From: Ilumatobacteraceae bacterium
GTDB lineage: Bacteria; Actinomycetota; Acidimicrobiia; Acidimicrobiales; Iamiaceae
Reading direction: 5' to 3'
Length of the DNA: 64,000 bases
Assembly (NCBI GenBank): GCA_025463265.1
Contig: JAOBWH010000165.1
Span: forward strand, 1-64,000
Part shown: positions 1-13,021 of the stretch, in pieces
How the letters are laid out: the number at the start of each line of letters is the position of its first letter
Numbering within the stretch: the stretch's first letter is position 1
The notes under the pieces: generated by a model
Database searches by the model: none
What the model was told of the DNA's origin: nothing
Seen by the model: the letters and a program-made list of their open reading frames with translations, nothing else
Program-made: the position numbers and the translations under genes

Positions 1-103
1 CTTGCTGTCATCGAGGCGGCGGGCCGGCGCGACCGCTCACTGCACAGCGACCGCACAGCCAGCCCCGGTCGAGCGCACAGAGCCGGTCCGGATGGTGGGC
101 CCC

Positions 104-1774
104 ATGAACGCATCGAACGCATCGAACGCATCGAACGCATCGCAGGCGACGGCCGTCGCGCCCGAGGCGCCGGAGCACGGCGCCTCGCCCGACGGGCCGG
201 TCGCAGGAGGGGCGACAGGTGAGGCGGCTCCGGGGGAGGGGCGAGCCGACCTGCGCGAGCTCCGGCGGCGGCGCTCGCTCCTCGACGACGCCGCCCGTCC
301 CGACGCCGTGGCCAAGCGGCACGGGCGGGGACAGCGCACCGCCCGGGAGAACGTGGCCGACCTGTGCGACGACGGCACGTTCGAGGAGTACGGCGGGTTC
401 GCCTTCGCGGCCCAGGAAAGCCGGCGTGACCGGGATGACCTGCAGGCCAACACGCCGGCCGATGGGCTGATCACCGGGATCGGCCGCGTGAACGGCGGGC
501 CGTGCGCCGTGGTGGCCTACGACTACACGGTCCTGGCCGGCACCCAGGGCCAGCGGAACCACGCCAAGAAGGACCGCATCTTCGAGCTGATCGAGCGGAT
601 GCGCCTCCCGGTGGTGCTCTTCGCCGAAGGGGGAGGCGGCCGTCCGGGCGACACCGACATGCCCGTCATCGCCGGGCTCGACACCCGGGCCTTCGAGCAC
701 TTCGCGCGCCTGTCGGGGCTGGTGCCCAGCGTGGGCATCGCCGTCGGCCGGGTCTTCGCCGGCAACGCTGCCCTCCTCGGGTGCTGCGACACGGTCATCG
801 CCACCGCCGACTCGAACATCGGGATGGGCGGGCCGGCGATGATCGAGGGCGGCGGGCTCGGGACCTTCACCCCCGAGGACATCGGACCGATCGGCACGCA
901 GGTGGCGAACGGCGTCGTCGACATCGCCGTCGCCGACGAGGCCGAGGCGGTCGCCGTGGCCAAGCAGTACCTCTCCTACTTCCAGGGCCCGCTCGAAGGG
1001 GGAGCGGCACCAGACCAGGGCGCGCTGCGGGCGATCGTGCCCGAACAGCGCAAGCGGGTGTACGAGGTGCGCCGGGTGATCGCCGGCCTGGCCGATGAGG
1101 GGAGCGTGCTGGAGCTGCGCGCCGCCTACGGCACCGGGATCATCACCGCGCTGGTGCGGCTCGACGGTCTGGCGGTCGGTGTCATCGCCAACGACCCCGC
1201 GGTGCTCGGCGGCGCCATCGACGCCCCGGCTGCCGACAAGGCCGCACGATTCCTGCAGCTGTGCGACGGTCACGATCTGCCGGTGCTGTCGCTGTGCGAC
1301 ACCCCGGGCTTCCTTGTGGGTCCCGAGGCGGAGGAGACGGCTCAGGTCCGGCGGTTCTCCCGGCTGTTCATCACCGCCCAGTCGATGACCGTCCCGTTGG
1401 TGACCGTGGTGCTGCGCAAGGGCTACGGGCTCGGTGCCCAGGCGATGGCGGGCGGCAGCTTCCGGTCCCCGCTCGCCACCCTCAGCTGGCCCACCGGCGA
1501 GTTCGGCGGCATGGGTCTCGAGGGGGCCGTCCGGTTGGGGTTCCGGCGAGAGCTGGAGGCGATCGAGGATCCCGATGAGCGGCAGGCGGCGTTCGACTCG
1601 ATGGTCGAGGCGGCCTACCGCCACGGTCAGGCCCTCAACATGGCGGCCCACCTCGAGATCGACGACGTGATCGATCCCGCCGAGACGCGCGGGCGGGTCC
1701 TCCACGCCTTCCGGTCGGTGCCGCCGCCGCCCGTCCGGACCGGTCGGAAGCGCCCGGGCATCGATCCCTGGTAG
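104..1774 (+). CDS. Acyl-CoA carboxylase carboxyltransferase (beta) subunit
   Basis: This is a biotin-dependent carboxyltransferase of the propionyl/acetyl-CoA carboxylase beta family, which moves CO2 from carboxybiotin to an acyl-CoA in the cytoplasm. Two crotonase-like halves are visible: the N-half carries the glycine-rich stretch FAEGGGGRPGDTD (about residues 172-184) and the C-half carries CDTPGFLVGPEAEE (from about 399) followed by a KGYGLGAQAMAGGSF segment. With the ATG at 104 it has 556 residues, slightly long for the family because of a low-complexity N-terminus containing four N-A-S repeats. The frame stays open to the window edge and another ATG lies at 92, so the start is uncertain. 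No biotin carboxylase or biotin carrier gene is seen downstream; a partner may lie upstream of the window. Substrate is not determinable. Confidence 0.9.
   Translation: MNASNASNASNASQATAVAPEAPEHGASPDGPVAGGATGEAAPGEGRADLRELRRRRSLLDDAARPDAVAKRHGRGQRTARENVADLCDDGTFEEYGGFAFAAQESRRDRDDLQANTPADGLITGIGRVNGGPCAVVAYDYTVLAGTQGQRNHAKKDRIFELIERMRLPVVLFAEGGGGRPGDTDMPVIAGLDTRAFEHFARLSGLVPSVGIAVGRVFAGNAALLGCCDTVIATADSNIGMGGPAMIEGGGLGTFTPEDIGPIGTQVANGVVDIAVADEAEAVAVAKQYLSYFQGPLEGGAAPDQGALRAIVPEQRKRVYEVRRVIAGLADEGSVLELRAAYGTGIITALVRLDGLAVGVIANDPAVLGGAIDAPAADKAARFLQLCDGHDLPVLSLCDTPGFLVGPEAEETAQVRRFSRLFITAQSMTVPLVTVVLRKGYGLGAQAMAGGSFRSPLATLSWPTGEFGGMGLEGAVRLGFRRELEAIEDPDERQAAFDSMVEAAYRHGQALNMAAHLEIDDVIDPAETRGRVLHAFRSVPPPPVRTGRKRPGIDPW
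107..142 (+). repeat. Four perfect 9-bp tandem repeats (AACGCATCG) inside the carboxyltransferase N-terminus
   Basis: Four identical copies of AACGCATCG directly follow the chosen ATG and encode Asn-Ala-Ser four times. The unit length keeps the reading frame, so copy-number change would alter the length of the flexible N-terminus without disrupting the enzyme. Confidence 0.95.
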
Positions 1775-1818
1775 GGGGTCCGGATTCGTGGTCGGGCCAG
1801 CACGGAGCGCGTTCGAAT

Positions 1819-1832
1819 TGTAACGTGTTCTC
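1819..1832. promoter_or_regulatory. KstR-like palindromic operator candidate
   Basis: The sequence TGTAACGTGTTCTC contains the AAC-N2-GTT core and matches 13 of 14 positions, counting free positions, of TnnAACnnGTTnnA, the motif bound by the TetR-family sterol regulator KstR in mycobacteria and rhodococci. It lies about 48 bases before the amidohydrolase start in a 105-base gap. No KstR gene is present in the window, so the regulator is inferred only from the motif. Confidence 0.4.
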
Positions 1833-1879
1833 GTTCGGCGCTCCTCCCTCCGGCGCCCGGAACACAAGGGGACAACGCC

Positions 1880-3604
<1,725 letters not shown>

Positions 3605-3670
3605 CCGCGGTCCCGCTCCGGCGGCAGGTCGGGCCGGTGCGCGCCCGACGATACGGATGAGTGGCACGCG

Positions 3671-3699
3671 TTGAACTCGGCGTGCGTGGCTCCTACGGT
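3671..3699 (+). promoter_or_regulatory. Sigma70-type promoter of the I36-like secreted protein gene
   Basis: TTGAAC (3671-3676) and TACGGT (3694-3699) are separated by 17 bases, the best -35/-10 pair I see in the window. The predicted transcription start near 3706 leaves a leader of about 80 bases before the ATG at 3787. Confidence 0.6.
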
Positions 3700-3705
3700 G
3701 CCCCT

Positions 3706-3726
3706 CGGCGCTGGTCTCCAGCGCCG
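3706..3726 (+). promoter_or_regulatory. 5'-leader hairpin 1 (9-bp perfect stem)
   Basis: CGGCGCTGG and CCAGCGCCG pair perfectly around a TCT loop, right at the predicted 5' end of the mRNA. Such a terminal hairpin could stabilise the transcript; that role is inference. Confidence 0.5.
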
Positions 3727-3731
3727 GTTCC

Positions 3732-3753
3732 GGCGAACAGGAGGGTGTTCGCC
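3732..3753 (+). promoter_or_regulatory. 5'-leader hairpin 2 with a Shine-Dalgarno-like loop
   Basis: GGCGAAC and GTTCGCC form a perfect 7-bp stem whose 8-base loop, AGGAGGGT, is itself a perfect Shine-Dalgarno sequence. The true ribosome site of the gene (AAGGAG at 3776-3781) lies downstream, so the loop is either a decoy or ribosome standby site, or chance. Confidence 0.45.
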
Positions 3754-3786
3754 TTCGTCTGGGGGGATCCATTCGAAGGAGTGCCC

Positions 3787-4380
3787 ATGAAGAAGTCCAC
3801 CACCCTGGCCGCGCTCGGCCTGGCCACCCTCTCGCTGGCCGGTCCGCCCAAGGCGGTGCTCGCCGAACCGGTCGCACCGGTGCGCGAGCAGCCCTCAGCG
3901 GATCCGTTCCCGGGCATGACCTGGATGTCCGGTGAGGAGTCCGACCGCCGAGGCCTGTCCGGTCCCATCGAGGAGACCACCCCCGAGCTGCCGCCGGGCG
4001 CGATGCCGCCGGCGTCCGGGTCGGACCGGTCGGCTGCGGCAGCCGCAGCAGCGGCCTCGATGCGGTGTCCGTCGGGGAAGCAGTGCATGTGGACCGGCGG
4101 CCACTTCTCCGGACCCGGCCACTGGCTGCGCGCCGGCCACGCCGGGACCTACTGGGCCTGGGCGGAGTCCAAGTGCGTGAACTCGGGCAACCCCAAGGGG
4201 AACTGGAAGAACTGCGCCAGTTCCTTGCAGAACGACAGCCGCGGGTTCGGCTTCACGGTGTACATGCACTCCGATTCCACGCCCGCAAACTCTTACAAGA
4301 CCGTCGGGGCCCTAGGCGAGCGCGCACAGCTCGGCCCGTTCGACAACAACATCGAGCGCTCCGTCGGCGTCGGGTCTTGA
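3787..4380 (+). CDS. Secreted peptidase-inhibitor family I36-like protein
   Basis: A 197-residue exported protein. Residues 1-27 are a Sec signal peptide (MKKSTT, hydrophobic core, cleavage near AVLA-EP). A Pro/Ser/Ala-rich linker with an eight-Ala run leads to a C-terminal Cys/Trp/Gly-rich domain beginning MRCPSGKQCMW and continuing with HFSGPGHW, which resembles the beta/gamma-crystallin-like fold of Streptomyces I36 metalloprotease inhibitors such as SMPI. Four cysteines in this domain would give two disulfides. The ATG at 3787 is chosen for AAGGAG at 3776-3781; an in-frame GTG at 3745 is less likely because it abuts a leader hairpin. It heads a cassette with two lipoproteins and an ACP-like/GNAT protein. 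Protease inhibition is family inference, not shown. Confidence 0.75.
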   Translation: MKKSTTLAALGLATLSLAGPPKAVLAEPVAPVREQPSADPFPGMTWMSGEESDRRGLSGPIEETTPELPPGAMPPASGSDRSAAAAAAAASMRCPSGKQCMWTGGHFSGPGHWLRAGHAGTYWAWAESKCVNSGNPKGNWKNCASSLQNDSRGFGFTVYMHSDSTPANSYKTVGALGERAQLGPFDNNIERSVGVGS

Positions 4381-4385
4381 GCGCC

Positions 4386-5303
4386 GTGCACACTGGTGCA
4401 CGATTGCTCCTCGTGCTCGTGCTGGGGGTCGTTGCAACAGGCTGCACACGCGCCGAAACCCGGACCGAGCACCGCGAGCGGAGAGTCCGGCCTCTCACTC
4501 GGGTTGCGCCCGTCGATCCGCGCGATGTCGTGCTCCGTCCGAAGCGGTACTTCGAGCGGATGGAGAAGATCCAGCGGGCCACGGAGCACCTCACGGACGA
4601 CTGCATGAGGCGCAAGGGCCTTCGCTACGGGGGTGTCGCCCAGCTGATCGATCCGATCCAGGGCGGTCTTCCCCCGGACCTGGAGTATCGGGCGGCGCAG
4701 GGCTATGGGTTCGCGCACACCCTGCGTCCGATCTGGGAGCCTCCCGACGCTGAGGCCGACGACTGGTACCTCGCCTACTCGGGCGGCGAGGGCGAGCGCG
4801 TCAAGTGGAAGACGATTGCCAGCAGCGGCTCGATCGCTGGTGGCGGCTGCTTCGGCGAGGCGCGGAGGAAGGTGTCCGGGTCCGTCCTCGACTGGGTCTG
4901 GGCCAGGAGCGCCGAGCAGGACTACTGGCTGATCGTGGCCAAGGTGATCGAGTTCGACGACCGCTTCCCGGCGGCTCGTGCTGCGTGGTCCACGTGCATG
5001 GCCGAGCGCGGCCATCCCCGGTTCCAGGGTCCGATGCAGCCGTGGGTCCGGGCTCGCGAGAAGATCTTCAGCGAGCACGAGCGGATCGGGCGCGTCACCG
5101 AGCAGATGCGGGCGGACGAGATCGAGCTGGCGACGGCGGACGCGGAGTGCGAGATCTCGAGCGGCATGGTCGACCTCGACCGGACGATCCGCGAGGAGTT
5201 CTTGGCCCAAGCACCGCCCCAGTACCTCCGTGACATCAAACGGATCGCGGATGCCCAGACCGAGGCGCTGCAGACCATCGAGCGAGAAGGGCTCGACCCG
5301 TGA
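4386..5303 (+). CDS. Lipoprotein paralogue A (unknown function)
   Basis: A predicted lipoprotein of 305 residues: after the GTG start a hydrophobic stretch LLLVLVLGVVATGC ends in the lipobox cysteine, then a charged linker and a mature domain beginning RVAPVDPRDVV. The mature part is Trp- and acid-rich and has four conserved cysteines (in DDCMRRKG, GGGCFGEA, STCMAERG and DAECEIS), suggesting two disulfides outside the membrane. I do not recognise a characterised family. The start is GTG 4386, five bases after the preceding stop; a TTG at 4377 overlapping that stop is the alternative. Its last 800 bases are duplicated in the next gene, with which it overlaps by 4 bases (GTGA). Confidence 0.75.
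   Translation: MHTGARLLLVLVLGVVATGCTRAETRTEHRERRVRPLTRVAPVDPRDVVLRPKRYFERMEKIQRATEHLTDDCMRRKGLRYGGVAQLIDPIQGGLPPDLEYRAAQGYGFAHTLRPIWEPPDAEADDWYLAYSGGEGERVKWKTIASSGSIAGGGCFGEARRKVSGSVLDWVWARSAEQDYWLIVAKVIEFDDRFPAARAAWSTCMAERGHPRFQGPMQPWVRAREKIFSEHERIGRVTEQMRADEIELATADAECEISSGMVDLDRTIREEFLAQAPPQYLRDIKRIADAQTEALQTIEREGLDP
4504..5303 (+). repeat. 800-bp direct repeat, copy 1
   Basis: This tract aligns without gaps to 5451-6250 at a constant offset of 947 bases. It covers the mature domain of lipoprotein A up to and including the stop codon and the overlapping GTG start of the next gene. The first 150 bases or so carry most of the differences; the rest is nearly identical. Confidence 0.9.
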
Positions 5304-6250
5304 CCCGCCTCGACCGCTGCTGGTTCCGCGCATGGCGGGTGGGATGCGTCGGTGTGGCGCTCGTGATGCTCGCCGGATGCAGCAACGCGTCGCCGCGCCC
5401 GGAGGGGCGATCGGAAGATGGCGCCCACCGTGTCCGGTCCCCGAGACGCGTTGCGCCCGTCGATCCGCGCGATGTGGTGCTCCGTCCGAAGCGGTACTTC
5501 GACCGGATGGAGAAGATCCAACGGGTCACCGAACGGCTGGCCGACGACTGTATGAGGCGCAAGGGGCTGCGGCCCGGCGAGGTCGCCCAGCTGATCGATC
5601 CCGGCCAGGGTGAGCTCCTACCCGACCTGGAGTATCGGGCGACGCAGGGCTTTGGGTTCGCGCACACCTTGCGTCCGATCTGGGAGCCTTCCGACGCCGA
5701 GGCCGACGACTGGTACCTCGCCTACCGGGGCGGCGAGGGCGAGCGCGTCAAGTGGAAGACGATTGCCAGTAGCGGCTCGATCGCTGGTGGCGGCTGCTTC
5801 GGCGAGGCGCGGCGGAGGGTGTCGGGGTCTGTCCTCGACTGGGTCTGGGCCAGGAGCGCCGAGCAGGACTACTGGCTGATCGTGGCCAAGGTGATCGAGT
5901 TCGACGACCGCTTCCCGGCGGCGCGTGCTGCGTGGTCCAGGTGCATGGCCGAGCGCGGCCATCCCGGGTTCCAGGGTCCGATGCAGCCGTGGGTGCAGGC
6001 TCGCGAGAAAATCTTCAGCGAGCACGATCGGATCGGGCGCGTCACCGAGCAGATGCGGGCGGACGAGATCGAGCTGGCGACGGCGGACGCGGAGTGCGAG
6101 ATCTCGAGCGGCATGGTCGACCTCGACCGGAGGATCCGCGAGGAGTTCCTGGCCCAAGCACCGCCCCAGTACCTCCGTGACATCAAACGGATCGCGGATG
6201 CCCAGACCGAGGCGCTGCAGACCATCGAACGAGAAGGGCTCGACCCGTGA
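5300..6250 (+). CDS. Lipoprotein paralogue B (unknown function)
   Basis: A 316-residue paralogue of the preceding lipoprotein. Its signal peptide is unrelated in sequence (MTRLDRCWFRAWRVG then a hydrophobic core) and ends in a textbook lipobox, LVMLAGC. From RVAPVDPRDVV onward it matches copy A; I count 8 amino-acid changes over roughly the last 190 residues, against 9 in the 45 residues before that. All four mature-domain cysteines are kept. It starts with GTG overlapping the stop of copy A (GTGA) and ends in the same overlap with the acetyltransferase gene, so three genes are probably translationally coupled. Function unknown; a surface location is inferred from the lipobox. Confidence 0.8.
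   Translation: MTRLDRCWFRAWRVGCVGVALVMLAGCSNASPRPEGRSEDGAHRVRSPRRVAPVDPRDVVLRPKRYFDRMEKIQRVTERLADDCMRRKGLRPGEVAQLIDPGQGELLPDLEYRATQGFGFAHTLRPIWEPSDAEADDWYLAYRGGEGERVKWKTIASSGSIAGGGCFGEARRRVSGSVLDWVWARSAEQDYWLIVAKVIEFDDRFPAARAAWSRCMAERGHPGFQGPMQPWVQAREKIFSEHDRIGRVTEQMRADEIELATADAECEISSGMVDLDRRIREEFLAQAPPQYLRDIKRIADAQTEALQTIEREGLDP
5451..6250 (+). repeat. 800-bp direct repeat, copy 2
   Basis: Second copy of the repeat described for 4504-5303. It too ends exactly in the GTGA stop/start overlap, so the duplicated unit carries its own downstream start codon. Confidence 0.9.
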
Positions 6251-7089
6251 CCGAAGGCTCCGGCGGCGTCGGCCCCCTCGCCGAAGGCGAGTTCATCCAG
6301 CGCCTCGGGGCACGCCTGGCGATCCCGACGACCGTGCTCAGCCGGGCGACGCGCTTCGACGCGCTGCCGCAGGACCGAGCCTCGCGTGCCTTCCTGCTCC
6401 GAGCGCTCACGGATCTGCTCCCCGGTGCTCCGCCAGACCTGGTCCTCAGCGTCGAGACGGTCGGGGAGGCCCACGAGTGGCACGTGCAGCGCTTGCAAGC
6501 CGTCCGAACCGGCCGGGTGGTCGGGGACGCCGCCGGAGCCGAGGACGCGCCACGGGTTCTCCTTCGGCCCATCGACCCGAGCGACCACTGGCCGCTCTAC
6601 CAGGCGGCGATCCGACCGGAGTCGGCGTTCCGCTGGCGCTACCGGGGCGCCACGCCGAGCTTCGAACGGTTCATCGCAGGGCTCCACGATGGCGTCCTCG
6701 TCCAGCACGTGGTGCAGGCCGTCGATGGCCCGCCCGTCGGGCTGGTGGTCTGCTACCAGGCCAGCATGGAGAGCCGGACCGCCTTCTTCGGCTTCATCCG
6801 GACGACCGAGACCTCGCAGGACGGGATGATGTTCGAAGGGCTGATGCTGTTCCTGCGGTTCCTCTTCGACACCTGGGACTTCCGCAAGCTGTACGCCGAG
6901 GTTCCGGCGTACAACTTCGACGGCATCCTCTCGGAGCAGACGAGGGGCATCGAGGTGGAGGGCATCCTGCGCGGCCACCTCTTCCACGCTGGGACGTGGT
7001 GGGATCAGTACCTGATCGCGCTGTGGCGGGAGCGCTGGATGGCAGAGTCGGCGAGCTGGTTCGGGACCGAGAGCCCCGCACCGGCCTGA
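6247..7089 (+). CDS. ACP-like domain fused to a GNAT N-acetyltransferase
   Basis: A 280-residue cytoplasmic protein with two parts. Residues about 10-80 look like an acyl-carrier domain: helices around RFDALPQDRASRAF and LLRALTDLLPG, and an ETVGEAHEW segment like the last helix of ACPs. The serine that would carry phosphopantetheine is not at the usual Asp-Ser-Leu position; the sequence reads QDRAS. Residues about 97-265 are a GNAT fold (LLRPIDPSDHWPLYQAAI at the start, then VGLVVCYQASMESRTAFFGF) of the type that acetylates amino groups. It begins with GTG overlapping the stop of lipoprotein B and closes the cassette. The acyl donor and acceptor are unknown; the domain reading of the N-terminus is moderate confidence. 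Confidence 0.75.
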   Translation: MTEGSGGVGPLAEGEFIQRLGARLAIPTTVLSRATRFDALPQDRASRAFLLRALTDLLPGAPPDLVLSVETVGEAHEWHVQRLQAVRTGRVVGDAAGAEDAPRVLLRPIDPSDHWPLYQAAIRPESAFRWRYRGATPSFERFIAGLHDGVLVQHVVQAVDGPPVGLVVCYQASMESRTAFFGFIRTTETSQDGMMFEGLMLFLRFLFDTWDFRKLYAEVPAYNFDGILSEQTRGIEVEGILRGHLFHAGTWWDQYLIALWRERWMAESASWFGTESPAPA

Positions 7090-7110
7090 CGTCGACGTCG
7101 GAGCCGGCGG

Positions 7111-8109
7111 CTACTCGACAGCTTCGAGGGGGCGGGGGGCTGCCGGCTCGGTGGGAGCGGAGCGGGCCTCGCTGCCGAAGCGCATCTTCTTGGTGTGCTC
7201 GAGGGTGTCTTCGATGAGCATCCGGTTGGTGCGGATGAGGTCCGAGATGATGCCGAGCATCACCGACAAGAAGGCGGCGAGGATGCCAGCGACGCCGAGG
7301 AGCAGCGACTGCAGGTGGCTGCCGCTGCTGTCGGTGAGCTTGAGGTAGCCGTAGCGGGCGAACGGGAACACGCCGAGCACCATGAAGATGGCGGCCACGG
7401 TTCCGAAGATCGCGTACGGCTTGTACATGATGTAGGCCCGCACGATGGCCATGCCGGAGCGGGCGACGTGCTCCTTGGTGGAGCCGAACAGCCGGGACTC
7501 GCGGGTCTTCGGGTTCGTGGTGACGGGGATGCTGACGATCTTCAGCTTCTTGATGCCCGCCTGGATGATGGTCTCCATGCAGTAGCTGAACCGGGTGATC
7601 GTGTTCAGCAGCATCAGCGACTCTCGCGAGTAGGCGCGGAACCCGCTGGCGGCGTCGGGCATGTCGGTGCCGCCGGCGATGTTCACGATCTTGCTGCCGA
7701 ACTTCTGGAGGGCGATCTTGCCCTTCGAGAAGTGCTCGACGAGGTGGACCTGGCGGTCCGCGATGACGATCTCCGCCTCGCCCCGCAGGATCGGCTGGAC
7801 GAGGTCGCTGATGCGCTCCTGCGGATACTGGTTGTCGCCGTCGGTGTTGACCACGATGTCGGCGCCGAGCTCGAGCGCCCGTTGGATGCCGTCGTGGAAC
7901 GAGCGGCCGAGGCCGCGGTTGCGGGCGTGGTGGACGAACTCCGTGACGCCGTGCTCACGGGCGACCTCGACGGTCCGGTCGGTGGACCCGTCGTCGATGA
8001 TGAGGACGATGATCTCGTCGATCCCCGGGATCTCCTTGGGGATCGTGCCCAGCACGAGGGGGAGGGTCTCCTCCTCGTTCAGGCATGGCACCTGGACCAC
8101 GAGCTTCAC
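7111..8109 (-). CDS. Family 2 glycosyltransferase with C-terminal membrane segments
   Basis: A GT2 enzyme of about 332 residues. The GT-A fold is clear: VVQVPCLNEEETLP, VLIIDDGSTDRT, then the metal-binding NTDGDNQYP (DxD), and ASGFRAYSRES. Two hydrophobic helices near the end (YAIFGTVAAIFMVLGVFPFA and LLLGVAGILAAFLSVMLGII) anchor it to the membrane, as in polyprenyl-phosphate glycosyltransferases of the DPM1/GtrB type. A role in making a lipid-linked sugar for envelope glycans fits but is inferred. The start is GTG 8109 (MKLVVQVP) with GAGAGG upstream; the frame stays open to 8196. A candidate -10 box TATCCT lies on this strand at 8147-8142. Confidence 0.88.
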   Translation of the reverse strand: MKLVVQVPCLNEEETLPLVLGTIPKEIPGIDEIIVLIIDDGSTDRTVEVAREHGVTEFVHHARNRGLGRSFHDGIQRALELGADIVVNTDGDNQYPQERISDLVQPILRGEAEIVIADRQVHLVEHFSKGKIALQKFGSKIVNIAGGTDMPDAASGFRAYSRESLMLLNTITRFSYCMETIIQAGIKKLKIVSIPVTTNPKTRESRLFGSTKEHVARSGMAIVRAYIMYKPYAIFGTVAAIFMVLGVFPFARYGYLKLTDSSGSHLQSLLLGVAGILAAFLSVMLGIISDLIRTNRMLIEDTLEHTKKMRFGSEARSAPTEPAAPRPLEAVE

Positions 8110-8271
8110 GCGCCGCACTACCTCTCTCACGGGAACGATCCAGGATAGTTCTTGCCGGCCCGGGATCGGCAACGCGCCACTGGACATCCGTCCCACCGCG
8201 GAGGGCGGCCCCAGCGCCTACCGTGCCCGTGCTCGCTGTGCCTGCAGCGCCGATCCGTGAAGGAAGTCCCG

Positions 8272-9108
8272 ATGCAACGACGCACCCTCGCCCTCGTCCT
8301 CGCCGCTGCGCTCAGCCTCGGCACGCTCGCCGCGTGCGGATCCTCCGGGAGCGACGGCGCGAGCACGAGCACCACCACGACCGCTGCGAAGGCCGACGAG
8401 ACCACCACGACCGCCGCTGCCGCCGAGCCGCTGCAGATCCTGGTGGGCAACGACGACGGGTACTCGGCCGAGGGCATCGACACGCTGGTGACCGCGCTCC
8501 AGACGCTCGACGACGTGGAGATCACCGTGGTGGCCCCGCTCACCCAGCAGAGCGGCCAGGGCGGCAAGACCACCGACGGCGAGCTGGAGGTCACCGACGT
8601 GAAGACCAAGAGCGGCTACCCGGCCAAGGCCGTGGCGGGCTACCCGGCCGACGCCATCAACGTGGCGTTCGACGACCTCGGCGTGAAGCCCGACGTGGTC
8701 ATCACGGGCATCAACGAGGGTCAGAACCTCGGCGGCCTCCAGGACATCTCGGGCACCGTCGGCGCCGCCCGAGCGGCCGCCTCGCACGGCGTCCCCGCCC
8801 TGGCCGCCAGCCAGGGCACCACGTCGTTCGACTACGACGCAGCGGTGCCGTTCATCCTGGACTGGGTGAAGGAGAACCGGGAAGCGATCCAATCCGGTGA
8901 CTTCGAGGTCGGGGTGAGCAGCATGAACGTCCCGAGCTGCGACAGCGGGGAGATCCGCGGCCTGGTCGAGCCCGAGGTCGCGGACACGGTCGACGCGGCC
9001 ATCGCCGATCAGGACTGCACGTCCACGACGCCGGAGGCCGACCTGGCGACCGACATCGCTGCGTTCAACGCAGGGTTCGTGACGCTGACCCCCGCCGACG
9101 TGGAGTAG
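8272..9108 (+). CDS. Exported SurE-like nucleotidase lipoprotein
   Basis: A SurE-family phosphatase domain with an N-terminal lipoprotein signal (LALVLAAALSLGTLAAC, lipobox LAAC) and a Thr/Ala-rich linker, 278 residues in all. The family's catalytic features are intact: the Asp pair in VGNDDGYSAEG, the Ser in APLTQQSGQG and the Asn motif TGINEGQNLGG. Family members remove phosphate from nucleoside monophosphates with a divalent metal. Classical SurE is cytoplasmic and lacks a signal peptide, so this version probably works outside the membrane, for example in nucleotide scavenging (inference). ATG 8272 has AAGGAAG upstream. It is divergent from the GT2 gene. Confidence 0.85.
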   Translation: MQRRTLALVLAAALSLGTLAACGSSGSDGASTSTTTTAAKADETTTTAAAAEPLQILVGNDDGYSAEGIDTLVTALQTLDDVEITVVAPLTQQSGQGGKTTDGELEVTDVKTKSGYPAKAVAGYPADAINVAFDDLGVKPDVVITGINEGQNLGGLQDISGTVGAARAAASHGVPALAASQGTTSFDYDAAVPFILDWVKENREAIQSGDFEVGVSSMNVPSCDSGEIRGLVEPEVADTVDAAIADQDCTSTTPEADLATDIAAFNAGFVTLTPADVE

Positions 9109-9127
9109 GCCGGCCGGCCCGCACGGG

Positions 9128-10051
9128 TCAGTAGTGCCAGGGGTAGGGGGACCAGTCGGGGTCGCGCTTCTCCAGGAACGAGTCCCGGCCCTCTGCGGCC
9201 TCATCGGTGCCGTAGGCGAGGCGGGTGGCCTCGCCGGCGAACACCTGCTGGCCGACCAGGCCGTCGTCGATCAGGTTGAAGCTGAACTTGAGCATGCGCT
9301 GGGCGGTGGGGCTCTTGCCCATGATCTTGCGCGCCCACTCCAGGCCTTCCGCCTCGAGGTCGGCGTGGTCGACGACCCGGTTGACCATCCCCATCCGGTG
9401 CGCGTCCTCGGCGGTGTAGGTGTCGCCGAGGAAGAAGATCTCCCGGGCGAACTTCTGACCCACCTGCCGGGCGAGGTACGCCGACCCGAAGCCGCCATCG
9501 AAGCTGGCCACGTCGGCGTCGGTCTGGCGGAAGCGGGCATGCTCGCGGCTGGCGAGCGTGAGGTCGGCCACCACGTGGAGGCTGTGCCCACCGCCTGCGG
9601 CCCAGCCGTTGACTAGGCAGATCACGATCTTGGGCATGGTGCGGATGAGGCGCTGCACCTCGAGGATGTGCAGGCGTCCGGAGCGGGCGGGGTCGATGGT
9701 CTCGGACGTGTCGCCCTCGGCGTAGCGGTAGCCGTCGCGGCCCCGGATGCGCTGGTCGCCGCCGGAGCAGAACGCCCAGCCGCCGTCCTTCGGAGAGGGT
9801 CCGTTGCCGGTGAGCAGGACGCAGCCGACGTCGGAGGACTGGCGAGCGTGGTCGAGCACGCGGTACAGCTCGTCGACCGTGGCGGGCCGGAACGCGTTGC
9901 GGATCTCCGGCCGGTCGAACGCCACCCGGACGCAGCCCACGTCGACGGCCCGGTGGTAGGTGATGTCTCGGAGGTCGTCGAAGCCGGGGACGGGGGCCCA
10001 GGCCGACGGATCGAAGGTCTCCGAGATGCCGGGGACGGCGGTGCCGCTCAC
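9128..10051 (-). CDS. menB: 1,4-dihydroxy-2-naphthoyl-CoA synthase
   Basis: A crotonase-fold protein of 307 residues that matches MenB, which closes the second ring of the naphthoquinone in menaquinone synthesis, converting o-succinylbenzoyl-CoA to DHNA-CoA. Diagnostic features are FCSGGDQRIRG, the oxyanion segment NGWAAGGGHSLHVVADL, and the C-terminus YPWHY typical of MenB rather than of generic enoyl-CoA hydratases. The start is GTG 10051. It follows a DoxX-like gene with only 4 bases between, so the two are likely co-transcribed. Other men genes are not in the window. Menaquinone as main respiratory quinone fits an actinobacterium. Confidence 0.9.
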   Translation of the reverse strand: MSGTAVPGISETFDPSAWAPVPGFDDLRDITYHRAVDVGCVRVAFDRPEIRNAFRPATVDELYRVLDHARQSSDVGCVLLTGNGPSPKDGGWAFCSGGDQRIRGRDGYRYAEGDTSETIDPARSGRLHILEVQRLIRTMPKIVICLVNGWAAGGGHSLHVVADLTLASREHARFRQTDADVASFDGGFGSAYLARQVGQKFAREIFFLGDTYTAEDAHRMGMVNRVVDHADLEAEGLEWARKIMGKSPTAQRMLKFSFNLIDDGLVGQQVFAGEATRLAYGTDEAAEGRDSFLEKRDPDWSPYPWHY

Positions 10052-10055
10052 CGCG

Positions 10056-10466
10056 TCACCCCTCGCCCTTGGCGAGGCGGATCCCCGAGGCGATCATCGG
10101 GAACTGCATCGGCAGGCGCAGCCAGGCGGCGATGGCCGCCGGGTTGGTGGGCCTGCCGGCCTGGATCGCCATGTTGATGTTGGCCGGGTAGACGCCGATG
10201 AAGGTGGCCGTGGCGAGCGCGCCGCCGGCCTTCTGCTTCTGAACGTCGCTGGAGAGCAGCAGGGCACCGGCGGCCCCTTCGGCCGCACCGGCTGCGAGGT
10301 TCCAGAACCGCGGTGCACCCAGCGACCGCGGGATGATCTTGATGAACTGCTTGGGGACGAGCACGTGGAGCACGGCCATGAAGAGAAGGCCGCCGCCGAC
10401 GCGGAGTCGGAGCTTGCGGTAGCCGGGCGACTCCACGGGAGCCGGTGTGGTGGTGGGTGCGGTCAC
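10056..10466 (-). CDS. DoxX-like small integral membrane protein
   Basis: A 136-residue membrane protein with about four hydrophobic segments (GGGLLFMAVLHVLVPKQF, NLAAGAAEGAAGALLL, GGALATATFIGVYPANINMA, MQFPMIASGI) and the DoxX-family PANINMA and RLPMQFPM signatures. The family is often found beside quinone or redox enzymes but has no firm biochemical role. GTG 10466 lies 7 bases after a TAGCCT box on this strand (10479-10474), which fits a leaderless transcript. It precedes menB by 4 bases. Confidence 0.75.
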   Translation of the reverse strand: MTAPTTTPAPVESPGYRKLRLRVGGGLLFMAVLHVLVPKQFIKIIPRSLGAPRFWNLAAGAAEGAAGALLLSSDVQKQKAGGALATATFIGVYPANINMAIQAGRPTNPAAIAAWLRLPMQFPMIASGIRLAKGEG

Positions 10467-10473
10467 GGCGGCG

Positions 10474-10479
10474 AGGCTA
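10474..10479 (-). promoter_or_regulatory. -10 box for the doxX-menB transcript (leaderless)
   Basis: TAGCCT on the minus strand lies 7 bases before the GTG at 10466, placing the transcription start at or next to the start codon. No good -35 hexamer is seen. Confidence 0.5.
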
Positions 10480-10502
10480 CCGATCGCCCCACCCCCGCGT
10501 GA

Positions 10503-10519
10503 CCTGACGCTGTGTCAGG
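10503..10519. promoter_or_regulatory. Palindromic operator in the doxX/NTF2 divergent promoter region
   Basis: CCTGAC-N5-GTCAGG is a perfect inverted repeat with 6-bp arms, the TGAC-N5-GTCA form typical of TetR-family binding sites. It lies between the divergent starts at 10466 and 10528 and overlaps the candidate -10 of the rightward gene (CAGGAT, 10516-10521). The regulator is not identified. Confidence 0.5.
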
Positions 10520-10527
10520 ATCGGCCC

Positions 10528-10989
10528 ATGGACGCTGCTGATCTGGTCACCTACCGGGAGCTCGAGGAGCTCAAGTACCGCTACACGCGGGCGCTCGACC
10601 ACAAGGACTGGGACCTGTTCGCGTCCTGCTTCACACCCACCGCCACCGCCACCTACGGCGAGCGGCTCGACTTCACCGGCCCCGATGAGATCGTGGCCTT
10701 CATGCGCGAGAACCTCGGCACCAACATGATCACCCTGCACCAGGTGCACCACCCGGAGTTCACCGTCGACGGTGACACGGCGACCGGCACCTGGAGCCTG
10801 ATGGACCGCGTGATCATGACCGAGTACCGGTTCCTGCTCGACGGCGCCTCCACCTACCAGGACCGCTACGAGCGGGGCGCCGACGGGGTGTGGCGCATCG
10901 CCCACACCGGCTACGAGCGCATCTACGAGCAGATGGTCTCGTTCGACGACGTCCCGAGCTTCCACCTCACCGCCAACAAGTTCGCGTGA
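10528..10989 (+). CDS. NTF2-like (SnoaL-type) protein
   Basis: A 153-residue cytoplasmic protein with the cone-shaped NTF2-like fold: an N-terminal helix YRELEELKYRYTRALDHKDWDLFASCF followed by strands with HQVHHPEFTVDGDTATGTWSL and a late WRIAHTGYERIYEQM. The family includes SnoaL-like cyclases, isomerases and non-enzymatic ligand binders, so function is not fixed by sequence. The ATG at 10528 is 6 bases after CAGGAT, consistent with a leaderless or very short-leader mRNA under the palindrome at 10503-10519. It overlaps the next lipoprotein gene by 4 bases. Confidence 0.8.
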   Translation: MDAADLVTYRELEELKYRYTRALDHKDWDLFASCFTPTATATYGERLDFTGPDEIVAFMRENLGTNMITLHQVHHPEFTVDGDTATGTWSLMDRVIMTEYRFLLDGASTYQDRYERGADGVWRIAHTGYERIYEQMVSFDDVPSFHLTANKFA

Positions 10990-11510
10990 TCCGACGCGCA
11001 CTTCCGGCGCTGGCCGCACTGGTCGCGCTGGGCCTTGCGCTCGCCGTGACCGGGTGCAGCTCCGGTGACGACGCCGGCGGATCGACCACCACGGCCATGC
11101 CGGCGAGCACGACGACCACCCGGCCGGAGATCACCGACGAGGAGATCATCGACAACATCAACGAAGACCTCCGCCCATCGCTCGACGGGGCGTTCGAGCC
11201 GAAGGCCGTCGACTGCATCATCAGCGTCCTCGAGGACGGAGGGATCGGCGAGCTGGACGCCGACGAGGTCGTCCCGGAGTACGAAGCGCGCTGCGGTGTC
11301 ACGGCGACGAAGGTGACCGGCGTGATCACCGGCGCCGCGCTCGTGGAGCAGGGCGCCACCCCCGAGCAGGGGCTCTGCATCGCCGATGCCATCGCCAAGC
11401 TCACCTACGACCAGGTCGCTGCGTTCGGCGAGACCGAGACGAACGCGCTCTACGCGTCCTGCGACATCGACGTCGATGCGCTCGCCAGCCCGGTGGCGCC
11501 CGGCGGCTGA
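10986..11510 (+). CDS. Small lipoprotein of unknown function
   Basis: A 174-residue predicted lipoprotein: VIRRALPALAALVALGLALAVTGC is a lipoprotein signal, followed by a Ser/Thr-rich linker (STTTAMPASTTTTRP). The mature region, DEEIIDNINEDLRPSLDGAF onward, is acidic and has four cysteines at regular spacing (DCIISV, ARCGV, GLCIAD, ASCDID). No family recognised. It starts at GTG 10986 overlapping the stop of the NTF2-like gene (GTGA), so the two are probably coupled. Its 3' end overlaps the end of the convergent repair gene by 61 bases. Confidence 0.75.
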   Translation: MIRRALPALAALVALGLALAVTGCSSGDDAGGSTTTAMPASTTTTRPEITDEEIIDNINEDLRPSLDGAFEPKAVDCIISVLEDGGIGELDADEVVPEYEARCGVTATKVTGVITGAALVEQGATPEQGLCIADAIAKLTYDQVAAFGETETNALYASCDIDVDALASPVAPGG

Positions 11511-13021
11511 GGGGCGCTCGCCGGCCAGAGGTGGTGGAGCGCGTACGAGCGCCACGGTCGCCAGCGCTCGGCCAGAGCGGCGGCGTGCTTCGGCTCGGTC
11601 GGGCCGGCCAGGTTGCCGAGGCCGCGCAGGACGCCGAGGTCGGTGGGGAGGAAGACGTCCGGATCGCTCAGCGCCCGCATCGCGATGTAGGCGGTGGTCC
11701 ACGGACCGATGCCCTTCACGGCCAGCAGCCGCTGCTCGACCTCCTCTCGGTCGGAGCCGGGGTCGAGCACCACCGACGCGTCGGCGACCAGACCGCACGC
11801 CTCGGTCAGCGCCAGACCCCGGGCGCGGGGCATGGAGAACGAGGTCGGGTCGGCAGCGGCCAGCGTGGCGGCGGCGGGGAAGGCCCGTTCGAGGCGGTCC
11901 CCCGCCGAAGAGGCGGCTCGCAGCACGGGAGGCAGGTCTTCGCCGAGGGCGGTGGCGACCCGGCCGGCCACCGTCCGGGCTCCGGCGACCGACACCTGCT
12001 GGCCGATCACGGCGCGGACCAGAAGCTCCGTCCCGTCCGCCGCGCCCGGCGACCGGCGGCCGGGCACGCTGACGACGAGCGGGCGGAGCACCGGATCGGC
12101 GCCCAGGGCGGCGTCGACGGCCTCCGGATCGGCGTCGAGGTCGAGGAGCCGCCGACAGCGGGCCACGGCTGGCCCCAGGTCGCGGAGGTCGGCGAGCAGC
12201 AGGTCGGCGGTGACGTGGTCGGGCTGGGCGCGCAGCGTGACGATCGCCATGCCGGTGGGGAGGCGCAGCACGCGGTGGTAGGTGCCGTCGGGATCGACCG
12301 CCTCCACCCCCGGGATCGCCCTCGCGGCCAGGAACCCCACCACCTCGTCGCCGGCGAACGGGGTCCGGGTCGCCAGGCGCAGCGAGATGGGGGTGGGGCC
12401 GGCGCCGTCGTGGCGCACGTGGGCGCCCGACCGCCCCCGCTTGATCGACGTGGTCCGATCGGAGCGCAGCACGGTGGGACTGGCACCGAAGAACTCGCGG
12501 ACCGTGTCGTTGAACTGGCGGATGCTCGCGAACCCCGCGGCGAACGCGATCTCGGTGAACGGCAGCTCGGTCGTCTCGATCAGGACGCGGGCGGTCTGGG
12601 CGCGGCGGGAGCGGGCGAGCGGCAGGGGAGCGGCGCCCAGCTCCTGGACCAGCACCCGGTGCAGGTGGCGCTCGCTCACCGCGAGGCGTCGGGCGACACC
12701 GCCGACCCCCTCCCGGTCCACCAGCCCGTCGTCGATCAGCCGCATCGCCCGTGACGCCAGATCGCCGCGCACGTTCCACTCCGGGCTCCCCGGGGCCGTG
12801 TCCGGCCGGCACCGTCGGCAGGCCCGGAACCCGGCGCCCTGGGCGGCGGCGGCGGTGGGGTAGAAGCGGACGTTCCGGCGGCGCGGGGTGGTGGCCGGGC
12901 AGCTCGGCCGACAGAAGATGCCCGTGGTGGTCACCCCGACGAAGAACCAGCCGTCGAACCGGCGGTCCTTGCTCCGGATGGCGGCGTAGCAGCCTGCGTC
13001 GTCGATGATCACGACGGCCAT
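11450..13021 (-). CDS. Ada-like zinc/AraC regulator fused to an AlkA-type DNA glycosylase
   Basis: A 523-residue DNA alkylation-repair protein. Order of domains: Ada-type zinc module with Cys37, Cys41, Cys68 and Cys71 (FCRPSCPA and RACRRC); an AraC-type helix-turn-helix about residues 85-185 (VGGVARRLAVSERHLHRVL and FTEIAFAAGFASIRQFNDTV); an AlkA N-terminal domain; and a helix-hairpin-helix glycosylase domain with LAVKGIGPWTTAYIAMRAL and the catalytic-Asp motif PTDLGV. It removes alkylated bases such as 3-methyladenine, and the zinc module in Ada senses methyl phosphotriesters. There is no O6-methyltransferase domain (no PCHRV). ATG 13021 is chosen over an upstream TTG at 13042. Confidence 0.9.
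   Translation of the reverse strand: MAVVIIDDAGCYAAIRSKDRRFDGWFFVGVTTTGIFCRPSCPATTPRRRNVRFYPTAAAAQGAGFRACRRCRPDTAPGSPEWNVRGDLASRAMRLIDDGLVDREGVGGVARRLAVSERHLHRVLVQELGAAPLPLARSRRAQTARVLIETTELPFTEIAFAAGFASIRQFNDTVREFFGASPTVLRSDRTTSIKRGRSGAHVRHDGAGPTPISLRLATRTPFAGDEVVGFLAARAIPGVEAVDPDGTYHRVLRLPTGMAIVTLRAQPDHVTADLLLADLRDLGPAVARCRRLLDLDADPEAVDAALGADPVLRPLVVSVPGRRSPGAADGTELLVRAVIGQQVSVAGARTVAGRVATALGEDLPPVLRAASSAGDRLERAFPAAATLAAADPTSFSMPRARGLALTEACGLVADASVVLDPGSDREEVEQRLLAVKGIGPWTTAYIAMRALSDPDVFLPTDLGVLRGLGNLAGPTEPKHAAALAERWRPWRSYALHHLWPASAPQPPGATGLASASTSMSQDA

Follow-up and report, generated by a model that had tools for sequence, protein, structure and literature searches.

A four-gene cassette of an Ilumatobacteraceae bacterium joins an I36-lipoprotein pair to a GNAT from a family linked to acyl carriers and exported proteins

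The 64,000-nucleotide stretch analyzed here (the window) lies on contig C131 of a 4.05 Mb draft genome of an Ilumatobacteraceae bacterium, and near one end it carries a cassette of four genes that encode a secreted I36-like protein, two lipoproteins, and an acyl carrier protein (ACP)-like domain fused to a GNAT-type acyltransferase (genes 1 to 4, Table 1). Comparison with other genomes showed that the I36 gene and the lipoprotein gene form a conserved unit, and that the GNAT belongs to a family linked to acyl carrier proteins and exported proteins and, in some members, to a fatty-acid ligase of the AMP-forming kind. We tentatively read the cassette as encoding an exported I36-type protein, two copies of a lipoprotein partner, and an enzyme of the acyltransferase type that would act on the exported products, an interpretation whose chances we put somewhat short of even.

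The I36 domain of gene 1 lies behind a signal peptide (approximately residues 1 to 26) and a Pro/Ala-rich linker, so the earlier description of this protein as secreted and I36-like held. It was the only I36 match in its own genome, and a sequence search of the PDB returned chance-level matches only. The domain family, PF03995, is rare: across 397 genomes of the order it was found at 12 places in 10 genomes. At seven of the 12 a lipoprotein gene was directly downstream on the same strand, as derived by comparing I36 coordinates with the matches to a lipoprotein profile, which were present in 44 of the 397 genomes. These seven pairs were those of the window, of G265 (three copies), G172, G186, and G122. 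The two open reading frames (ORFs) were separated by 5 nt in the window, by about 10 nt in G172, and by 3 nt in one of the G265 copies. The same pair was present in G003, where the I36-like protein scored 20.0 bits, below the cutoff, and in G573, which is outside the order. In G003 and G172 the pair continued into a gene for a membrane fusion protein (MFP) and then one for an ABC ATPase, and in G117 a set of lipoprotein, MFP, and ABC genes had an I36 ORF about 2 kb further on. From the lipoprotein side the pairing was exceptional. Among 61 lipoprotein matches scoring above 80 bits only a few had an I36 gene upstream, while a signal-bearing coding ORF ended no more than 400 nt upstream of 15 of the 61, a count that includes lipoprotein A of the window, which precedes lipoprotein B. 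I36 proteins such as SMI are inhibitors of metalloproteases, and SKLP is a fold-related killer toxin-like protein of Streptomyces. Like these, gene 1 encodes a small secreted protein with a PF03995-type domain; unlike them, it is followed by a conserved lipoprotein partner.

Both lipoprotein genes begin with a lipobox, as had been predicted, and they are a tandem duplicate with 86% identical products. From the RVAPVD motif on, synonymous divergence (Ks) was 0.174 and nonsynonymous divergence (Ka) 0.039; DNA identity was 95-98% from about codon 120 on and approximately 46% in the leader parts. Because of these values and of the contrast between the leader and 3' identities, the two genes look mosaic and constrained, and the diverged leaders with near-identical 3' halves suggest gene conversion or a partial recent duplication. 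Neither protein matched a Pfam family above its cutoff, and one member of the wider family reached E 0.006 with no other support. In an alignment of 27 members, the rows of which were picked by profile, Cys 84, 166, 215, and 266 (numbered in gene 3) were invariant, and two of them sit in CMxxxG motifs; disulfides between these cysteines are a guess. A lipobox was called in only 38 of the 61 matches above 80 bits. The model of gene 3 was all-alpha except for a short hairpin, with a predicted local distance difference test (pLDDT) score of 83. Neither sequence comparison with the PDB (nothing at E 1) nor a Foldseek search (best E 2.8) gave a match. No relative was found on viral contigs, and a viral link of the lipoprotein was dropped. 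Two further occurrences of the four-Cys family were recorded. G265 (L161, L163, and L180) contained seven matches in one genome, three of them paired with I36, and at L006 (1324-2349 in G036; also L032) the four-Cys domain stood behind an apparent anti-sigma factor part and adjoined a gene for an extracytoplasmic function (ECF)-type sigma factor.

The GNAT family was defined with a profile of eight members, which matched 166 of the 397 genomes at E 0.001, and strong members were set apart from a weak tail. After 60 further neighbourhoods were retrieved, 67 GNAT loci were entered and five with a best score below 85 bits were dropped, leaving 62; 40 weak non-family GNATs of the same order served as controls. 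The ACP of the family is fused at either end of the GNAT or encoded in a neighbouring gene. A carrier, either fused or encoded on the same strand no more than 700 nt away, was found for 34 of the 62 family GNATs and for none of the 40 controls; 11 of the 62 loci had gone into the ACP profiles, so that the first count includes seeds and the second does not. The phosphopantetheine serine was kept in 29 of 38 carrier-like segments. By an in-house rule based on hydrophobicity and motifs, rather than by SignalP, a signal-bearing gene with at most two transmembrane segments was directly upstream of 20 of the 62 family GNATs and of one of the 40 controls (Fisher p 1.4e-4), or, restricted to loci with a called upstream gene, 20/46 against 1/24 (p 7e-4). 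This version of the rule, applied equally to both sets, was loosened after a stricter one (11/37 against 1/22) had missed the window's own lipoprotein; a looser early version gave 20/42 against 54/249.

The exported neighbours were of several kinds. At L093 the neighbour was an Exo_endo_phos protein (24.9 bits, cutoff 24.5), with similar ones recognized by eye at L095 and L104, and a CHAP protein neighboured the GNAT in Allorhizocola (L248). Others were small cysteine-bearing secreted proteins, or serine- or metalloprotease-like proteins labelled by motifs in the sequence only (L036, L081, L090, L096, L105, and L119), among which those of L036, L081, L096, L105, and L119 had no Pfam match above cutoff. 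Operons with MFP and ABC genes were present at L038, L074, and L109. When all neighbours were clustered, the only protein cluster to occur in more than 10 of the loci was that of the GNAT itself, and a single conserved partner for the whole family, other than carriers, was rejected.

When named genomes were scanned, 21 loci emerged, among them loci of Nocardia, Frankia, Rhizocola, and Allorhizocola, and 16 of the 21 were examined. In all five Nocardia loci (L242, L243, L244, L246, and L249) the gene behind that of the ACP-GNAT encoded a small protein, about 110-125 residues long, with a signal-like leader, and in L242, L243, and L246 an AMP-ligase gene came directly before the ACP-GNAT. In Rhizocola (L241, 7852-10164) the AMP-binding, PP-binding, and GNAT domains were found in a single protein of 770 residues, all above their Pfam cutoffs; the AMP-binding domain was confirmed by Pfam in L246, L241, and L250. 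An AMP-ligase was near 7 of 15 named loci (the 21 minus six copies of genomes already examined), a count that is partly circular since the ligase profile was seeded from six named loci. The L246 ligase was closest to fatty-acid ligase models, including FAAL and MbtM, all below cutoff (MbtM 336 bits, cutoff 621).

For gene 4, earlier labelled an ACP-like/GNAT protein, the GNAT fold was recovered, and the ACP part of the label fits the family but not the function of this copy: the N-terminal domain aligned with the ACPs of relatives, with the phosphopantetheine serine missing. The protein scored 24.9 bits against Pfam Acetyltransf_3, just below the cutoff of 25.4, and its N-terminal domain gave no match to PF00550 (PP-binding). 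Its model (pLDDT 84.9) is that of a GNAT; the best fold match was SpeG 3wr7 (Z 18.4, root-mean-square deviation 2.2 over 165 aligned residues), a profile search of the PDB gave SpeG 5wif first (E 7.6e-18), and the other fold matches included the lasso-peptide acetyltransferase 9iy3 and the NcdE acyltransferase domain 9nij/9nik. The coenzyme A (CoA) loop, TSQDGMMFEG, departs from [QR]xxGx[GA], a strict motif that is also missing in many carrier-bearing members.

Eight serine-less members grouped with L118 on a tree of 57 rows, inferred from the GNAT domain alone with the ACP columns excluded (support 94/91, nine rows). At seven of the nine loci in this group a signal-bearing gene was directly upstream. 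The two exceptions were L034, which had no upstream gene, its GNAT being at the contig end, and L105, which had none by the test and a secreted protein further up. The trio of secreted protein, lipoprotein, and GNAT was common to L033 (f1) and L118 (f19), whose secreted proteins (Z 12.7) and lipoproteins (Z 9.0) aligned better than all 300 shuffles in each case. L096 and L105 had a small secreted HExxH protein in common (Z 5.7, 1/300 shuffles); kinship of their lipoproteins was also tried and failed (Z 0.2). At L074 (f23) the order was lipoprotein, serine-less GNAT, MFP, ABC ATPase, permease. The GNAT at the end of contig C106 (L034, 5165-5971) is a second member of the branch in the window's own genome, with its upstream side lost.

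We infer the chemistry and the substrate of the acyl transfer from the make-up of the family, in which ligase, carrier, transferase, and exported neighbour together fit acyl transfer onto an exported protein before export. The carrier would be charged with an acyl chain by the ligase, and, still in the cytoplasm and ahead of Sec export, the GNAT would pass this chain to an amine on the exported protein encoded next door. Outside the membrane the lipoprotein may hold, anchor, or neutralize the secreted protein. Because the carrier domain is degenerate in the window, gene 4 would either use acyl groups of a carrier or of CoA in trans or bind as an escort without transferring, and its target could be the I36 protein or the lipoproteins. 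Somewhat more doubtful than this reading of the cassette is its extension, that Actinobacteria possess an undescribed acylation of Sec-exported proteins in which a ligase-loaded carrier serves a dedicated GNAT, a lipoprotein or MFP-ABC set receives or tolerates the product outside, and the window's branch has a pseudo-carrier. The targets would then be I36-type, nuclease-like, protease-like, CHAP, or small cysteine-bearing proteins.

Several observations count against acylation of exported proteins by these GNATs. The automatic tests found no carrier for 28 of the 62 family GNATs and no signal-bearing gene directly upstream of 42, the neighbours are highly varied, and within the order set an AMP-ligase was near only 5/62 family GNATs against 1/40 controls. 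I36 stood beside a GNAT of this type in one case only, the window. The nearest solved relatives of gene 4 are acetyltransferases, and its N-terminal domain has QDRAS at the site of the xDSL of carriers. Only 4 of the 9 branch proteins, compared with 21 of 24 serine-bearing ones, retain Gx[GA] in their CoA loop. Finally, no acylated product is known.

The four genes are also not a fixed set. The exact set was found nowhere else. Within a group of 41 genomes, the window's own and those of 40 relatives, the I36 protein was unique to this locus, the lipoprotein had weak matches in three other genomes only, and GNAT relatives were present in 14, the window's own included. Most lipoprotein homologues were without the GNAT and I36 genes, a result that goes against the complete set as originally predicted, and together with the data from the relatives it rules out a single transferable four-gene system of fixed make-up. 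What survives of that prediction is that a link between such GNATs and exported partners recurs in many genera, and that several families have kept the pairing of I36 with the lipoprotein even though the complete set is not conserved. A search of a plasmid collection returned weak Pantoea GNATs only (28-31% identity among the matches listed), and titles and abstract openings in the open literature nowhere described such a gene set. None of the four proteins matched any family in the PADLOC anti-phage defence profiles, and identity with a known anti-phage defence was dropped.

The cassette could instead be two independent modules side by side, an I36-lipoprotein pair and a GNAT that modifies something else, and the pair would then be an inhibitor or killer-type protein with an anchored partner or immunity protein. 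The pair without a GNAT nearby in G003, G172, G186, G265, and G122, the many other neighbours of the GNAT, and the joining of I36 to this GNAT in the window alone all favour such an arrangement. Against it stand the GTGA overlap that couples genes 3 and 4, the position of same-branch GNATs behind signal-bearing genes at seven of nine loci, and the four-Cys lipoprotein family near a GNAT at L038 and, by cysteine motif as judged by eye, at L070 and L109. We consider it unlikely on balance. Less probable again is that gene 4 is a plain acetyltransferase of the SpeG, RimJ, or RimL type with N-termini or polyamines as substrates, its ACP-like domain being a relic used in oligomerization. The SpeG matches and the lost carrier serine agree with this, but a shared GNAT fold says nothing on the acyl donor, and the family-wide link to intact carriers, AMP-ligases (in Nocardia and others), and exported proteins argues against it. 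A non-catalytic escort, in which the GNAT-carrier fusions of the serine-less branch bind nascent exported protein and pass it to Sec, would account for a domain retained despite serine loss and a weakened CoA loop, but we consider it very improbable. Conservation of K214, E238, R131, and G165, at 90% or more across the family, speaks for an active site that has been retained.

Acylation of exported proteins by a carrier-linked GNAT would resemble several described systems in part. In mycobactin synthesis MbtM is the ligase, MbtL the carrier, and MbtK the lysine acyltransferase. AMP-ligase, ACP, and GNAT likewise occur as a set here, and the L246 ligase resembles MbtM, although below cutoff; the mycobactin acylation serves a siderophore, whereas the present set adjoins the gene of an exported protein. 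As described in PMC13060382, GNATs also place fatty acyl groups on gene-encoded peptides (goadvionins, selidamides, and nostolysamides), acting on leader-bearing lanthipeptides beside lanthionine synthetases. The neighbours in this study are instead signal-bearing exported proteins and lipoproteins, and the signal of gene 1 is of the Sec type when compared with the leader-type precursor of a ribosomally synthesized and post-translationally modified peptide (RiPP). No RiPP or lanthionine synthetase was recognized among the ORFs of positions 1-12000 or at the loci examined, where no RiPP profile search was made. The toxin-activating acyltransferases HlyC and CyaC, which use an acyl-ACP donor, and CdiC of class IV contact-dependent inhibition are, according to PMC8510554, likewise dedicated acyltransferase genes beside an exported protein, with RTX or CdiA exporters and an enzyme with a His/Asp dyad. 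The present loci differ in that the signals are of the Sec type, the enzyme is a GNAT similar to RimJ and SpeG, and the carrier is encoded together with it. HlyC, ApxC, and FeeM were not among the structure matches listed for gene 4, which without a direct comparison does not exclude kinship with HlyC.

The boundaries and spacing of the four genes were as first described, with a 5-base gap between genes 1 and 2 followed by two 4-base GTGA overlaps. The start of gene 2 is ambiguous, either GTG at 4386 or TTG at 4377, and the latter overlaps the stop of gene 1. A promoter had been proposed at 3671-3699; a consensus scan of 3400-7400 gave zero promoter-like and no terminator-like sites. An amidohydrolase ORF (1880-3604), which we take to resemble N-acyl-D-amino-acid deacylases, is encoded on the same strand 182 bases upstream of the cassette, and the ORF at 8152-9108, whose product presumably resembles SurE, opens with a lipobox and is thus apparently exported.

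Table 1. Features of the four-gene cassette, in window coordinates
Feature	Position	Strand	Evidence
Gene 1, secreted I36-like protein, 197 aa	3787..4380	+	ORF; PF03995, 24.1 bits over cutoff 21.1
I36 domain	4045..4266	+	Pfam PF03995 (Inhibitor_I36) match
Gene 2, lipoprotein A, lipobox ATGC, four-Cys all-alpha family	4386..5303	+	ORF; invariant Cys in alignment
Gene 3, lipoprotein B, lipobox LAGC, tandem duplicate of gene 2	5300..6250	+	ORF; invariant Cys; model
Duplicated block, copy A, RVAPVD to stop	4500..5303	+	93% DNA identity to copy B
Duplicated block, copy B	5447..6250	+	DNA comparison with copy A
Gene 4, serine-less ACP-like domain fused to GNAT, 280 aa	6247..7089	+	ORF; Pfam; alignment; model; tree
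ACP-like helical N-terminal domain without phosphopantetheine Ser	6283..6507	+	Alignments; model helices 13-24, 45-57, 63-68, 72-87
GNAT domain, about residues 103-272	6553..7062	+	Pfam, model, fold match

The conserved I36-lipoprotein pair provides a partner, and hence a functional handle, for a protein family that is much annotated and little tested. Since several of the GNAT loci are in cultured, named strains, the proposed acylation is directly testable. If it is true, many secreted enzymes and small proteins of the Actinobacteria would carry acyl groups that are missed by standard annotation, and the lipidation of exported proteins would reach beyond lipoprotein cysteines and RTX-type exporters.

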